Source: Meiothermus cerbereus DSM 11376 (GTDB lineage Bacteria > Deinococcota > Deinococci > Deinococcales > Thermaceae). Taken from it: 64,000 nucleotides of DNA. Position 1 is the first letter of the stretch. Each line of letters opens with the position of its first letter. A program made the translations under genes and the position numbers. Shown here piece by piece: positions 4,074-56,504 of the stretch. The notes under the pieces were generated by a model. That model was not told the DNA's origin. It worked only from the letters and a program-made list of their open reading frames with translations, and did not search any database. The stretch is taken from positions 1 through 64,000 of the forward strand of contig NZ_JHVI01000012.1 in NCBI RefSeq assembly GCF_000620065.1, read 5' to 3'.

Positions 4074-4759
<686 letters not shown>

Positions 4760-49254: not shown

Positions 49255-50175
49255 CTAAGCACCCACCAGATCACGGGCTGTGCCCAGAGAACGCCACAGC
49301 AGCCCCAGCAGTTCGCGGGTGGCAAAGTCCACCGAGGAATCGGGGTAGGAGACCCAGTGCACCCCCAGGGAAAAACCCGCGTCTTCGATGAATAAAAGCC
49401 GTAACAAACCGGCCTTTTGCTCGGGTTCCACAAACGAGCGGCTGGCCAGCCCCACCCCCAGCCCGGCGGCGGCCGCGGCCTTGACCCCATACAGGCTGCC
49501 GCACTCCAGAAGACGCGCTGGCACAATGCCGTGGCGTTCCAGAAACTGCTCGAGCCGCAGGCGCAGGCGCGAGTTGCGCTGAGGAACCAGCAGGGTCATG
49601 CCCTCGAGCTGCCCCAAAGCCACGCCCCCCAGCCCGGCCCAGGGGTGTGAGGGGGCCACCGCCAGCACCACCTCCTCACTGGTCAGGCGCTGAGCTACAA
49701 GCGGCTCGGGCAGGGTATCGGTTCCACCCAGCACCAGTGCTGCATCCAGGTCGCGCTGGTAAACCTGTTCGATCAACTCCAGGGTGGTGCCATTCACCAA
49801 GCGAAGCTCGCAGCGGGCCTGCTGGGTTTGAGCCCAGGAAATCAGGGAGGCCTGGTAACGCGGAATCAGGCTCCAGGCCAGACCCACCTCGAGGCGGGGG
49901 ATGCGCTGGTGGCGCTTCTCCTCGATAAAGCGGGTGGCCTGGGCCAGGCTGCGACTCACCGCGCAAGCATAGGGCAGCAGGGCTTTGCCGGCTTCGGTCA
50001 GGGTGATGCCCTGGGGGGTGCGCTCGTAGAGGGGCTGCCGCACCGCGTCCTCGAGGGCCTTGAGGGTTTTGCTGACCGCAGGCTGGCTCAGGTGCAACAC
50101 TTCGGCAGCACGACTCAGACTGCGCAGTTCGGCCACCACGCAAAATACTACCAAGTACCGTGGGTTTAAACGCAT
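49255..50175 (-). CDS. LysR-family transcriptional regulator
   Basis: 306 aa. Winged helix-turn-helix at 1-60 ([32 protein letters not shown] in sequence) and a periplasmic-binding-type effector domain ([47 protein letters not shown]). It lies divergent from the rhodanese/persulfide dioxygenase operon with a 178-bp shared region. It could regulate that operon or itself, though the operon promoter carries CsoR-type rather than LysR-type (T-N11-A) boxes. Effector unknown. Confidence 0.9.
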
Positions 50176-50286
50176 AAGAATAGGCTTGTGTAGTATACAG
50201 CTTCAACAACCCGGCAAAATCCACCCACAACCCAAAGCCCAACCAGTTCCCTAGCCGCAGGACTTTGCCGACCAATCATTTCACTT

Positions 50287-50304
50287 ATATCCCCTTAGGG
50301 TATT
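50287..50304. promoter_or_regulatory. CsoR/CstR-like box 1, cst-like operon
   Basis: ATATCCCCTTAGGGTATT; its complement AATACCCTAAGGGGATAT matches box 2 (50311-50328) at 15 of 18 positions in inverted orientation. It ends on the first T of the -35 element. Confidence 0.6.
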
Positions 50305-50333
50305 TGACAGAATACCCCCTGGGGATATATCCT
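50304..50333 (+). promoter_or_regulatory. Promoter of the cst-like operon with CsoR/CstR-like box 2 in the spacer
   Basis: Consensus -35 TTGACA at 50304-50309. The -10 is TATATC (50326, 16-bp spacer) or TATCCT (50328, 18-bp spacer). Box 2, AATACCCCCTGGGGATAT (50311-50328), fills the spacer, so a bound protein would exclude polymerase. The TACCC...GGGNA arrangement resembles operators of the CsoR/CstR family, which sense copper or persulfide. Confidence 0.6.
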
Positions 50334-50353
50334 GGCGGTCAGGAGGTTAGCGC

Positions 50354-51796
50354 ATGCTCTTCAAGCAAATCTACGAGGAAGGACTGGCGCAAGGCAGCTA
50401 CTTCATCGGTTGTCAGTCGGCAGGTACCGCGGTGGTGGTAGACCCCCGGCGCGATATCCAGGTCTACCTGGACGAAGCCCAGAAGAACGGTATGAAGATT
50501 GTGGCCATCACCGAGACCCACATCCACGCCGACTACCTTTCGGGCGCCCGCGAGCTGGCCAAGGCCACCGGGGCTAAGCTGTACCTCAGCGACGAGGGCG
50601 ACGAAAACTGGAAGTACAAAGGCCTCGAGGGCTTCGACTATCAGCTCGTGCGCGATGGCGACCAGATCAAGCTGGGCAACATCACCCTCACGGTAGTGCA
50701 TACCCCCGGCCACACCCCCGAGCACATCAGCTTTTTGGTGCAGGACGGCGCAGCCGCCAGCGAGCCGGGCTTCTTCCTGACCGGCGACTTTGTGTTCGTG
50801 GGCGATATTGGCCGCCCCGACCTGCTGGAAGAGGCCGCCGGCATCCTGGGCACTGCCGAGCCCGGTGCGCGGCGCATGTTCAAGAGCCTTAAGGAAAAAT
50901 TCCTCACCCTGCCCGACTACGTGCAGGTCTGGCCGGGCCACGGGGCCGGTAGCGCCTGCGGCAAAGGGCTGGGAGCCGTAGCCAGCACCACCGTGGGCTA
51001 CGAGCGCCGCTTTGCCTGGTGGGCCGACTACCTGCGTACAGGCGACGAAGAAGGCTTCGTAAAGGCCCTGCTCTCGGGCCAGCCCGAAGCCCCCTACTAC
51101 TTTGCCCGGATGAAGCGGCTCAACCGCGACGGGATGCCCATCCTGGGACGCTTGCCCGAACCCCCCCATCTCACCCCCGAGCAGTTTGAGCAGCAGCTCA
51201 AGCAAGGGGCCTTGCTGGTGGACACCCGCGACAAGCTGGCCTTTGCCGGCGGGCACCTAAAGGGAGCCATCAACATCCCGGCGGGCAAGAGCTTCAGCAC
51301 CTGGGCCGGCTGGCTGCTGCCCTACGACCGCGACCTGATCCTGCTGGCTGGCCCCGAGCGGGTGGGCGAGCTGGTCAAGCAGCTTATTCGCATCGGGCTG
51401 GATCGGGTGGTGGGGTATATCCCGGGCCTCGAGGGCTACGCGCAAGGCGAGCTCGAGACCGTTCCCCAGATCACCGCAGCCCAGGCCAAGGCCCTGTGGG
51501 AAAAGGGCGAGGCCGCCATCCTGGACGTGCGCGGGGCCGACGAGTACCAGGCCGCTCACATCCCCGGAGCCCAGAACATCCACGCCGGGCGGGTGATGAA
51601 CAACCTGGAGCGCATCCCCAAAGACAAGCCGGTGGTGGTGCACTGCCTGGGCGGCGACCGCTCCTCCACCGCCATCAGCGCGCTGATGGGCGCAGGCTTT
51701 ACCAACCTCATCAATCTCACCGGCGGCATCCGGGCCTGGCAGCAGGAGGGCTTCCCCATCGAAAAAGGCTCGGCCCGCGATCTTGTAAGCGCCTAA
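50354..51796 (+). CDS. Persulfide dioxygenase-like MBL protein fused to two rhodanese domains
   Basis: 480 aa. Residues 1-250 are an ETHE1/persulfide dioxygenase-type metallo-beta-lactamase fold: TETHIHADYLSG, HTPGHTPEHISF, LTGDFVFVGDIGRPDL and WPGHGAGSACG with iron-binding His/Asp. Rhodanese domain 1 (about 275-360) has no catalytic Cys at its loop (LLAGPERVGE). Domain 2 (about 370-475) has an active VVHCLGGDRSS. This is the layout of CstB, which oxidises and transfers persulfide sulfur to thiosulfate. First gene of the operon, Shine-Dalgarno AGGAGG. Confidence 0.92.
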   Translation: MLFKQIYEEGLAQGSYFIGCQSAGTAVVVDPRRDIQVYLDEAQKNGMKIVAITETHIHADYLSGARELAKATGAKLYLSDEGDENWKYKGLEGFDYQLVRDGDQIKLGNITLTVVHTPGHTPEHISFLVQDGAAASEPGFFLTGDFVFVGDIGRPDLLEEAAGILGTAEPGARRMFKSLKEKFLTLPDYVQVWPGHGAGSACGKGLGAVASTTVGYERRFAWWADYLRTGDEEGFVKALLSGQPEAPYYFARMKRLNRDGMPILGRLPEPPHLTPEQFEQQLKQGALLVDTRDKLAFAGGHLKGAINIPAGKSFSTWAGWLLPYDRDLILLAGPERVGELVKQLIRIGLDRVVGYIPGLEGYAQGELETVPQITAAQAKALWEKGEAAILDVRGADEYQAAHIPGAQNIHAGRVMNNLERIPKDKPVVVHCLGGDRSSTAISALMGAGFTNLINLTGGIRAWQQEGFPIEKGSARDLVSA

Positions 51797-51859: not shown

Positions 51860-52168
51860 ATGAATCTATCTGTCAAAACCGCCTATCAAACCCTGGAACG
51901 CTTTCAAGTGGTGGACATCCGCGAGCCCCAAGAGTGGGCCGAGGGGCTCCTGCCGGGGGCTTTGCGCCTGCCTTTGTCCAGGCTAGAGGCCCTGGCCCCC
52001 CTGTACCTCGAGCGCGAACAGCCGGTGCTCCTGTACTGCCGCAGCGGCAACCGTTCGCAGGAAGCCCGTCAAATCCTGCAAAACCTGGGCCACCCCAAGG
52101 TCTGGCACCTCGAGGGCGGCCTCAAAGCCTGGTGTGAAGCCGGCATTCCCTGTGCAAGCCCCGTCTAA
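51860..52168 (+). CDS. Single-domain rhodanese
   Basis: 102 aa, cytoplasmic (no signal). One rhodanese domain: VVDIREPQEWAEGLLPGALRLP, active loop LLYCRSGNRSQEA with the sulfur-carrying Cys (about 59), and HLEGGLKAWCEAG. Two further cysteines lie near the C-terminus (AWCEAGIPCASPV), unusual for this size and possibly a second acceptor site. 63 bp after the persulfide dioxygenase gene. Confidence 0.9.
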   Translation: MNLSVKTAYQTLERFQVVDIREPQEWAEGLLPGALRLPLSRLEALAPLYLEREQPVLLYCRSGNRSQEARQILQNLGHPKVWHLEGGLKAWCEAGIPCASPV

Positions 52169-52179
52169 GGAGGACACTC

Positions 52180-52842
52180 ATGCTTACTGCTCCATACAAA
52201 GACATCAACCCCCAAGAAGCCCGCAAGCTGCACGAGCAAAACACTCTTTTTGTTGATGTGCGCGAACCTGAGGAGTTTGCCCAGGTGCGCATCGAGGGTG
52301 CACAGCTCATCCCCTTGTCGGAGTTTGCCGGACGCTATCAGGAACTGCCCAAAGATCAGCCGGTGGTGCTCTACTGCCGCAGCGGCAACCGCAGCGCCCA
52401 GGCCGCAGCCTGGCTCTCGGCCAAGGGCTATACCAACCTGCTCAACCTCGATGGGGGCATTATGGCCTGGTACCAGGCCGGGCTGCCGCTGGATACCGAG
52501 CCCCTCGAGGCCACCTACCAGGACACCGCCTTCACCGAGCTCACCCCCCACGAAGCCCAGCAGTGGATTCGGGAAGGGGCCTATGTGGTGGACGTGCGCG
52601 AACCCTACGAGTACGCCATGGGGCACGTGCCCGGCGCGGTCAACATCCCCCTGGGGCGCTTTGTGAGCGAGGTGGGCAAGCTGCCCAAAGACCGCAGGCT
52701 GGTGGTGGTCTGCGCCTCGGGAGGCCGCTCCGCGCAGGCCTCTGAATATCTGGTAGGGCATGGCTTCGCCAAAGAAAAGGTGGGCAACCTCGAGGGCGGC
52801 ACCTACGGCTGGATGAGCGCAGGGCTCGAGGTAGAGCGTTGA
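52180..52842 (+). CDS. Tandem-domain rhodanese
   Basis: 220 aa with two complete rhodanese domains, both with a catalytic Cys: domain 1 (1-100) LYCRSGNRSAQAAAWL, domain 2 (115-220) VVCASGGRSAQASEYL. Domain 2 ends NLEGGTYGWMSAGLEVE. Classical tandem rhodaneses keep only the second Cys, so two active domains suggest successive transfers or gene fusion. Shine-Dalgarno AAGGAGGAC. Confidence 0.9.
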   Translation: MLTAPYKDINPQEARKLHEQNTLFVDVREPEEFAQVRIEGAQLIPLSEFAGRYQELPKDQPVVLYCRSGNRSAQAAAWLSAKGYTNLLNLDGGIMAWYQAGLPLDTEPLEATYQDTAFTELTPHEAQQWIREGAYVVDVREPYEYAMGHVPGAVNIPLGRFVSEVGKLPKDRRLVVVCASGGRSAQASEYLVGHGFAKEKVGNLEGGTYGWMSAGLEVER

Positions 52843-53180
52843 TCGGCTGGCTCAAAAACCTGCTGGGGGGTGGGGCAGCAGTGGGCCGCCTCAGCCCTGC
52901 TGAGGCCTACGAAAAGGCCAGGGCCGGGGCCATTATCCTGGACGTGCGCACCCCATTAGAGCGCAAGGAAGGTAAAATCCCTGGCTCACAGGCTCTACCC
53001 CTCGACAAGCTGGCTAGCGAATGGGAGAAACTGCCCAAGGATAAAGAGATCATCTGCCAGTGCCGCAGCGGCGCACGCAGTGCCCAGGCCGCGCGCTTTC
53101 TGGCCGCCAAGGGCTACAAGGTCTACAATCTGGTGGGCGGCCTCGAGGCCTGGAAACAGCACAAGCTCCCGGTGAAGTGA
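52839..53180 (+). CDS. Single-domain rhodanese
   Basis: 113 aa beginning with TTG that overlaps the previous stop by 4 bp (TTGA), hence translationally coupled. A short amphipathic N-terminus (IGWLKNLLGGG) may touch the membrane. The rhodanese domain follows: IILDVRTPLERKEGKIPGS, active loop CQCRSGARSAQAARFL with Cys-x-Cys, and NLVGGLEAWKQHKLPVK. The extra Cys two before the catalytic one may form a disulfide or accept the persulfide. Confidence 0.88.
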   Translation: MIGWLKNLLGGGAAVGRLSPAEAYEKARAGAIILDVRTPLERKEGKIPGSQALPLDKLASEWEKLPKDKEIICQCRSGARSAQAARFLAAKGYKVYNLVGGLEAWKQHKLPVK

Positions 53181-53533
53181 TGTACGACATTTTCCCCAAC
53201 GAGCTTTCCCTCTGGCAAAAACGCGGTGCGCTGCTCTTGGATGTGCGCTCACCGGAGGAGTTTGCCAGTGGGCACATTCCGGGCTCGCGTAACCTTCCCC
53301 TCGAGCAGCTCCTAGACACGCCCCAATCCCTAAAAAGCCCTATCGTAACCATCTGCGCTACGGGCAGCCGGGCAGGGTTGGCTGCGGAGGTGCTGGGGTA
53401 CGAGGGCTTCGAGGTGGGCAAGCTGGTGGGGGGCATTCAGGGGTATAGGGCCCTGGGATACCCGCTCGAGCGCTCCACTCCCCCAGAAGAGGTCGAGGTG
53501 CCCTTTAGACCCGAGGAGGCTCCATGCTCCTAG
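53180..53533 (+). CDS. Single-domain rhodanese
   Basis: 117 aa. The ATG shares an A with the previous TGA stop (TGATG), a coupled start. LLLDVRSPEEFASGHIPGSRNLP, active loop TICATGSRAGLAAEV and LVGGIQGYRALGYPL identify a rhodanese. The C-terminal tail ([19 protein letters not shown]) is acidic and overlaps the permease gene by 10 bp. Likely the last cytosolic carrier before export. Confidence 0.87.
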   Translation: MYDIFPNELSLWQKRGALLLDVRSPEEFASGHIPGSRNLPLEQLLDTPQSLKSPIVTICATGSRAGLAAEVLGYEGFEVGKLVGGIQGYRALGYPLERSTPPEEVEVPFRPEEAPCS

Positions 53534-54288
53534 CCTGGATGGGTGCAATTCTCATCGGTCTGGCCCTGGGGATGCTGGGCTCGGGGGGCTCGATTCTCAC
53601 CGTGCCCATCCTGGTCTACCTGGTGGGGGAACCCGACAAGCTGGCCATCGCCGAGTCGCTGGCTATTGTGGGCCTGATCGCCTTGGTAGGGGCTGTGCCC
53701 TACGCCCTGAAGGGCCTGATCGACTGGCGCAATGTGCTGTTTTTTGGCCTGCCGGGCATGGCCGGCACCTACCTGGGGGCCTATTTTTCCAAGTGGGTGC
53801 CGGGGGTCTGGCAGCTGGGGCTGTTTGCGGTGGTAATGCTGCTGGCCGCTTACATGATGTTCCGCCCACCCAGGCTCGAGGCCACCCCGCAGAAGCGCGC
53901 CTACTTCAAGATTGTTGTGGATGGCCTGGTGGTAGGCGTCCTGACCGGCCTGGTTGGGGTGGGCGGGGGCTTCCTGATTGTCCCGGCCCTGGTTTTGCTG
54001 GGCGGGCTGCCCATGCACCTGGCGGTGGGTACGAGCCTGCTGATTGTAGCGATGAAGTCGGCCAGCGGCTTCTACAAATACCTGCACCTGCTGCCCGAGC
54101 AGGGCTACACCGTACACTGGGACATCGTGCTGATCTTCGCGGCGCTGGGCATCGCGGGCAGCTTGTTTGGGGGCCGCCTGGCCGCCTCCATTCCCCAGCT
54201 TGCCCTGCGGCGCGGCTTCGCCGGGTTTTTGGTAGTGATGGGGGTTTTTATCCTGTGGCAGAACCTGCCCAAGGTGTTACATGGCTAG
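53524..54288 (+). CDS. TauE/SafE family permease
   Basis: 254 aa with about eight membrane helices and the two TauE/SafE repeat motifs: [22 protein letters not shown] at the N-terminus and [22 protein letters not shown] in the middle. Members are proposed exporters of sulfite, sulfoacetate or related sulfur compounds; in cst operons TauE is thought to export sulfite or a similar product. Last gene of the operon, with Shine-Dalgarno GAGGAGG inside the preceding gene. Confidence 0.92.
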
Positions 54289-54374: not shown

Positions 54375-54547
54375 CGGGGCAACCAGTGTGGTACAACCAT
54401 CACTCCTGCACAATTTCGCGATGCATACCAACTTTAGAGCTTTTATAGGGGGGCCTCGCGTTTCGTTACGCGATGCAATGGCACATAACGCCGCAACAGT
54501 GGACTTTTTGCACATTTGTTCCACAAACTGCATGTACCATGCCACTT

Positions 54548-55000
54548 ATGAACCTTTTTGATTGGCTCCGCAACTGGGGCCGTAAACAACCCACGGAGGC
54601 CCCCAAATTAGAATCAGAAGAACAACACTTCATGGGCCTGGATGTGCAGGCGGTCATTAATACCCACCTGGCCTGGCGCAAACGGCTCGAGGACTGCATT
54701 CTAGGTCACTCCAACGAAGAGCTAGACATCAGCGTCATCATGCAGGACAACCAGTGCCAGCTGGGTCAGTGGCTTTATGGTCAAGCCGCTCGCAGCACCC
54801 TGGCCCTGCATCCCGAGTTTGCGGCCCTGCGCGAAACACACCGTACTTTCCACCTGTACGCTGCACGGGTGCTACAGACCCTGCGCATGCGGGGGGTGGA
54901 GGCCGCTCAGACCATGCTCGAGACCGAATTTGACCGCCTGTCCAAAGACATCGTGTTCAACCTGGCCGCCCTCATGCACAAGGAGCGCACCCTCCATTAA
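54548..55000 (+). CDS. Stand-alone CZB (chemoreceptor zinc-binding) domain protein
   Basis: About 150 aa. After a short basic N-terminus (NLFDWLRNWGRKQ) the protein matches the CZB four-helix domain: INTHLAWRKRLEDCILG, the zinc Cys in NQCQLGQWLYG, HPEFAALRETHRTFHLYAARVL. Three His and one Cys would bind zinc. CZB domains usually sit on chemoreceptors or cyclases and sense zinc or thiol oxidants such as HOCl. Here the domain is alone between sulfur operons. Start is ATG 54539 or 54548; the longer frame from 54473 is unlikely. Confidence 0.8.
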   Translation: MNLFDWLRNWGRKQPTEAPKLESEEQHFMGLDVQAVINTHLAWRKRLEDCILGHSNEELDISVIMQDNQCQLGQWLYGQAARSTLALHPEFAALRETHRTFHLYAARVLQTLRMRGVEAAQTMLETEFDRLSKDIVFNLAALMHKERTLH

Positions 55001-55670: not shown

Positions 55671-55687
55671 ATACCTATAGTGGGTAT
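55671..55687. promoter_or_regulatory. CsoR/CstR-like box upstream of tlpA
   Basis: ATACCTATAGTGGGTAT has ATACC and GGGTAT half-sites in the spacing seen in the cst-like operon boxes. It lies 20-36 nt before the tlpA ATG and overlaps the probable -10 region. Confidence 0.5.
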
Positions 55688-56013: not shown

Positions 56014-56042
56014 TTGACGTGTATACCCCCAGGCAGTATTAA
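56014..56042 (+). promoter_or_regulatory. Promoter of the sox cluster with CsoR/CstR-like box in the spacer
   Basis: TTGACG (56014-56019), 17-bp spacer, TATTAA (56037-56042). The spacer holds ATACCCCCAGGCAGTAT (56023-56039), 13 of 17 positions as in box 2 of the cst-like operon, with ATAC/GTAT outer half-sites. Position relative to -35 and -10 is the same as in the cst-like promoter. Confidence 0.55.
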
Positions 56043-56069: not shown

Positions 56070-56504
56070 ATGCGATACATTTTGTTATCAATCATCGGGG
56101 CCTTACTGACGGCCAACGCCCAGGGGGTGGATTTTGACCGCTGGTATCCCTATGCCCAGGCCAGCCAGTATGCCCAGATGCACGGGCGCATCCTGATGGT
56201 CTATTTCTGGAGTGGGGTCTGTCCTTACTGCGACCAAATGAACACCCATGTTCTTTCCGACCCGGCGGTCTCGAGCGTCCTCGAGCGCCGCTTTGTGGTG
56301 GCCAGCGTGGACAGTCATAGCCCCGAAGGACGCGCCCTCAGCGCGCAAATGCGGGCATTTGGCACCCCAAGTTTTGTCTTCTTCGTACCCCAGGGGGGTA
56401 CGTTGAAAGAGGCGGGTCGGCTCTTTGGTAGCCGTACCCGTGCACAGTTTCTGAGCGAACTGCAACAGATCTGTGCGAAAGTGGGAGGTGAAGGTTGTGG
56501 ATAG
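56070..56504 (+). CDS. soxW: SoxW-like thioredoxin
   Basis: 144 aa with signal peptide (YILLSIIGALLTANA) and a thioredoxin fold of the SoxW/DsbD-gamma kind: MVYFWSGVCPYCDQMNTHVL with Cys51-Pro-Tyr-Cys54, the cis-Pro in FGTPSFVFFVPQ, and a C-terminal Cys pair region (QICAKVGGEGCG). It probably keeps the SoxY carrier Cys reduced. First gene of the sox cluster; soxY starts 8 bp before its stop. Confidence 0.85.
   Translation: MRYILLSIIGALLTANAQGVDFDRWYPYAQASQYAQMHGRILMVYFWSGVCPYCDQMNTHVLSDPAVSSVLERRFVVASVDSHSPEGRALSAQMRAFGTPSFVFFVPQGGTLKEAGRLFGSRTRAQFLSELQQICAKVGGEGCG

Follow-up and report, generated by a model that had tools for sequence, protein, structure and literature searches.

What controls the cst-type operon of Meiothermus cerbereus, and what part do two palindromic boxes at its promoter play in this control? 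The operon lies within the window, i.e., the whole stretch of 64,000 nucleotides that was analyzed, and comprises the following genes, listed with their divergent neighbor:

49255 to 50175, reverse strand: LysR-type regulator, divergent neighbor (rejected as a binder of the boxes, see below)
50354 to 51796, forward strand: CstB-like protein, with a metallo-beta-lactamase fold of the persulfide dioxygenase type (PF00753) and two rhodanese domains (PF00581, twice)
51860 to 52168, forward strand: rhodanese (domain search)
52180 to 52842, forward strand: double-domain rhodanese (domain search)
52839 to 53180, forward strand: rhodanese (domain search)
53180 to 53533, forward strand: rhodanese (domain search)
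53524 to 54288, forward strand: TauE/SafE-type sulfite exporter (PF01925)

The CstB-like gene (ATG at 50354) is thus followed by four rhodanese genes and the TauE exporter gene, and this combination of a CstB-type dioxygenase-rhodanese, rhodaneses, and TauE is the one expected of a cst operon. The domains found in it are of the rhodanese, lactamase-fold, and TauE types only, and no TusA or DsrE domain, by which a CstA would be recognized, was found in the operon. No close sqr is present in the genome; an sqr-like gene does occur between the LysR gene and cstB in several of the other Meiothermus, and the corresponding region here (49255-50350) lacks it. On the 3' side of the operon, 54473-55000 encodes a CZB-domain (chemoreceptor zinc-binding) protein.

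A preliminary description of this DNA had proposed that two inverted boxes are arranged around a consensus TTGACA, the second one filling the promoter spacer. This arrangement was borne out, with cores of 15 bp, and the paired boxes at the cst promoter are real:

50288 to 50302, no strand assigned: box 1, 15-bp core TATCCCCTTAGGGTA, directly 5' of the -35 element
50304 to 50309, forward strand: -35 element TTGACA, between the boxes (1.95 bits per column in 19 cst promoters)
50313 to 50327, no strand assigned: box 2, 15-bp core TACCCCCTGGGGATA, inside the -35/-10 spacer
50328 to 50333, forward strand: likely -10 element TATCCT after a spacer of 18, predicted from sequence (TAtnnT is kept in relatives)
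50341 to 50346, forward strand: ribosome-binding site AGGAGG

The 18-mers originally described, ATATCCCCTTAGGGTATT (50287-50304) and AATACCCCCTGGGGATAT (50311-50328), correspond to a 19-nt inverted repeat that is 84% complementary, and the last T of the first 18-mer is also the first T of the -35 TTGACA. The 15-bp cores (50288-50302 and 50313-50327) do not overlap with TTGACA. Both are pseudo-palindromes in inverted order with a centre-to-centre distance of 25 bp, and the core of box 2 occupies the spacer of the cst promoter.

Type 2 operators of CsoR-family repressors consist of two G/C tracts framed by TAC-X9-GTA ends, with the consensus ATATACCCCTNAGGGGTATAT (PMC3902906). The boxes carry the same inverted repeat in the forms TAT-N9-GTA and TAC-N9-ATA, one end of each being degenerate, and their G/C tracts (CCCC..GGG and CCCCC.GGGG) are enclosed by AT-rich ends. 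The initial assignment to the TACCC...GGGTA-type palindromes therefore agrees with the published type 2 form, except for the TAT or ATA at one end of each box (PMC3902906). We predict that the boxes are almost certainly operators of CsoR-family repressors.

Could they instead be palindromes that arose by chance and have no function? As a null model, 300 windows were simulated with the dinucleotide content of the real one. The pattern TAYCC-N5-GGRTA is expected 0.09 times per 64 kb in this simulation versus three observed occurrences, and a pair of boxes within 30 bp was found in none of the 300 simulated windows. Exact 17-bp matches amount to six genome-wide, two of them at the cst promoter, and across 18 genomes of the genus ATACCCNNNNGGGRTAT without mismatch yields 87 matches versus one for the reversed control pattern. 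(A first search pattern, ATAYCCCCYNRGGGRTAT, was out of register, with the true boxes at three mismatches, and was replaced by ATACCCNNNNGGGRTAT.) Simulation, genus scan (87 to 1), and a conservation that is fixed in position all contradict the chance reading, and we found no point in its favor. It is already refuted by the conservation of the boxes, and we give it practically no credence.

Absence of the boxes upstream of orthologous operons had been named as an observation that would speak against the preliminary interpretation; they turned out to be conserved in Meiothermus and in sister genera. In 17 of the 18 same-genus genomes, the two occupy identical positions around TTGACA, box 1 being degenerate in the remaining one (G017), and both boxes are also found in the sister genera g2 and g4. 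In the alignment of cst promoters, information per box column reaches 1.26 and 1.33 bits, versus 0.31 bits just upstream. A single box, located in the spacer, is found in all 13 Thermus genomes that have the gene, where the cst promoters display the full TAC-N9-GTA, and likewise in several less closely related members of the order. Since 17 of 18 Meiothermus have the dual arrangement versus the spacer box only in Thermus, the upstream box was either gained on the Meiothermus-Calidithermus side or lost in Thermus. Outside of this phylum, in Dietzia cinnamea (Actinomycetota; L181), two box-like palindromes precede a CstB-like gene that starts at 4617, and a CsoR-family gene lies upstream of that gene on the opposite strand.

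The comparison with relatives also bears on the LysR-type protein, whose gene adjoins the operon here and is kept near cst in many Meiothermus, and which might control the cst promoter through the boxes. LysR sites have the form T-N11-A, which the G/C-tract palindromes do not resemble. Moreover, where an sqr-like gene separates the LysR gene from cst, it is cst that the boxes accompany; further copies are found at trxB and cstR promoters; and the Thermus cst promoters carry the box, with no LysR match found nearby. We regard this reading as most unlikely and rejected the LysR protein as a binder.

Which protein would then bind the boxes? The preliminary description had placed a CstR-like repressor elsewhere in the genome, and had named the lack of any CsoR/CstR homolog as another observation that would refute it; a search for a CsoR-family gene with CstR-type cysteine ligands indeed revealed suitable candidates. 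Five CsoR-family genes are present, and two of them encode the cysteine pair without the histidine: CstR1, on the same contig (C8:94942), approximately 31 kb past the window end, and CstR2, on another contig (C13, at about 1605). Their cysteines (C39/C68 in CstR1, C45/C74 in CstR2) align with the pair of the pneumococcal protein 7mq1, and the copper-ligand histidine is absent, with a tyrosine at its position in the alignment to 7mq1 and 4m1p. The two proteins fall into one clade in our tree (support 98/94); the pneumococcal CstR-type 7mq1 occupies a long, unresolved branch of this tree, which is built on a short alignment, and does not group with them there. A search against NCBIfam gave no CstR match, and the scores of all five CsoR proteins fell far short of the RicR, FrmR, and RcnR cut-offs. 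At least one gene of the CstR clade is found in all 18 same-genus genomes, and in several relatives such a gene adjoins cstB. We predict CstR1 and/or CstR2 as the likely binders in this genome.

The distribution of the box points to a small set of target genes. One box, ATACCCCCTAGGGATAC, has its end three bases ahead of the CstR1 ATG and is kept in the Meiothermus orthologs; another precedes a tlpA-like gene that lies upstream of cstR1, and yet another is found between a rhodanese gene and a Trx-like/rhodanese/cstR2 operon. Of the 87 exact boxes, cstB promoters account for 27, and 32 have a CstR-clade gene no more than 2.4 kb downstream; 24 of the 28 loci that were read are cst, trxB, tlpA-cstR1, or rhodanese/Trx-cstR2 promoters. 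The predicted targets at these loci are sulfur and thiol genes and not copA/copZ. Two further matches stand apart: an exact one at C25:2475, without a sulfur gene in its vicinity, is possibly due to chance, and an extra 15-bp match at 56386 lies within a SoxW-like ORF and may be a coding coincidence.

This set of targets speaks against the genome's copper CsoR as the protein that reads the boxes in response to copper. It belongs to the same family and has a G/C-tract palindrome as its operator; yet the boxes lie at sulfur and thiol genes rather than at copA/copZ, and the T. thermophilus protein 3aai, of which the copper CsoR is a close ortholog, uses a different site, CCCCACCCCACCTGGGGTGGGG (PMC10318464). 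A copper-responsive function of the boxes is very unlikely, and the copper CsoR was rejected as a candidate as well.

Two weaker, conserved variants of the box are found farther downstream in the window, and the candidate regulator is uncertain for both:

55672 to 55686, reverse strand: variant box TACCTATAGTGGGTA before a TlpA-like gene
56024 to 56038, forward strand: variant box TACCCCCAGGCAGTA within the sox promoter spacer

Together with the cst pair, they are probably what the preliminary description meant by its four boxes. Boxes similar to TACCTATAGTGGGTA occur upstream of sox in most relatives. The sox promoter has TTGACG at 56014-56019, followed by a spacer box of the form TACCCCCAGG(C/T)AGTA that is kept in most Meiothermus. 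These sox-side variants need not share the repressor of the cst boxes. A further CsoR-family gene closes the sox operon, 4 kb beyond the end of the window (G000:C8:67932-68216; L015:3932-4216), and encodes a protein that has no cysteine and therefore cannot sense through thiols. This paralog is conserved in the sox operons of Meiothermus: 10 other Meiothermus copies are also cysteine-free, and group as one clade next to the TTHA1953-like proteins. It is conceivable, though doubtful, that several Meiothermus CsoR paralogs (CstR1, CstR2, the TTHA1953-like, and the cysteine-free one) read overlapping sets of TAC-N9-GTA sites; the cysteine-free protein, blind to the signal, would then compete with the others or enter mixed tetramers with them, and set how inducible sox and cst are.

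Thermus presents a puzzle in this respect. The CsoR family is represented there by the copper CsoR and TTHA1953 only, with no CstR-clade gene, in agreement with the published account (PMC10318464). As Thermus nevertheless keeps the spacer box, some other protein can read the box there. In six out of six Thermus trxB promoters (L272-L277), the box is present either exactly or with one mismatch. (A scan of Thermus genomes with TACCCCNNNGGGGTA, allowing one mismatch, had trxB upstream sites among its matches and was not stringent enough to delimit a regulon.) The boxes might accordingly be bound mainly by the TTHA1953-like paralog, CstR1 and CstR2 doing something else. The M. cerbereus genome encodes one such protein (contig C26), a likely ortholog of TTHA1953 whose gene is separate from those of CstR1 and CstR2, and TTHA1953 displays the same pattern of two cysteines and no histidine. 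Its published motif, TACNNTACNNNNGTANNGTA, can in our own reading be divided into two TAC-N9-GTA elements that are shifted by five bases relative to each other (PMC10318464), which suggests from sequence that TTHA1953 may use a single element. This two-element reading of the 20-bp motif would also reconcile TTHA1953 with the other type 2 CsoR sites. However, TACNNTACNNNNGTANNGTA has no match within three mismatches in 50200-50400, and in vitro TTHA1953 did not protect a site with a C4 tract (PMC10318464). Furthermore, no such box precedes the TTHA1953-like gene, whereas cstR1 and the cstR2 operon each have one. We thus consider it unlikely that the TTHA1953-like protein is the main binder, and favor CstR1 and/or CstR2.

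We therefore propose the following model, in which the boxes would be type 2 CsoR-family operators that repress the cst-type operon. Reduced CstR1 and/or CstR2 would sit on the two boxes, keeping RNA polymerase from the -35 element and the -35/-10 spacer. Persulfide or polysulfide would crosslink the cysteine pair of the repressor and cause its release from DNA, upon which the dioxygenase, the rhodaneses, and the TauE exporter would be made. Through the same boxes, trxB and the operons of the repressors themselves would be controlled in this way too. Analogy with characterized systems makes persulfide or polysulfide the probable natural signal, and the explanation as a whole, i.e., repression of cst by CstR1/CstR2 through both boxes and its relief by persulfide or polysulfide, appears likely. 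The preliminary interpretation is supported, with binding, the choice of paralog, and the persulfide signal as the parts that we infer. For Deinococcota, these observations link a cst-type operon with a defined operator, two candidate CstR-like repressors, and a small regulon that has thioredoxin reductase among its members, and raise the question of which of the five CsoR paralogs reads which box.

The cst boxes are a further example of a known switch, and not a new kind of system. The closest parallel is found in Staphylococcus aureus, where CstR binds two operators, OP1 and OP2, in the cst promoter (PMC9426444), and has two cysteines and no copper histidine, responding via C31/C60 (PMC5480029). 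Judged by sequence, the Meiothermus case works like this system, and shares with it the two operators, the persulfide dioxygenase-rhodanese, and a CsoR-family candidate repressor with two cysteines and no histidine. Unlike in S. aureus, the repressor genes are located elsewhere in the genome and are two in number, a TusA/DsrE domain and a close sqr are lacking, and trxB shares the box. YrkD of Bacillus licheniformis (PMC9918477) is likewise a CstR-like repressor of sulfane-sulfur genes, its own promoter included, but acts on one gene cluster, of which the repressor gene is the first, under co-control by NreBC. TTHA1953, the sox repressor of Thermus thermophilus (PMC10318464), belongs to the CsoR family too, with two cysteines, no histidine, and sulfur targets, and comes from the same bacterial family; yet its published motif differs, and cst is not among its reported targets. 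At the level of DNA, the type 2 CsoR operators, e.g., those of the Streptomyces lividans CsoR, have the same ends and G/C tracts as the boxes described here, which differ from them by one TAT or ATA end per box and by targets that belong to sulfur and thiol metabolism instead of copper efflux.
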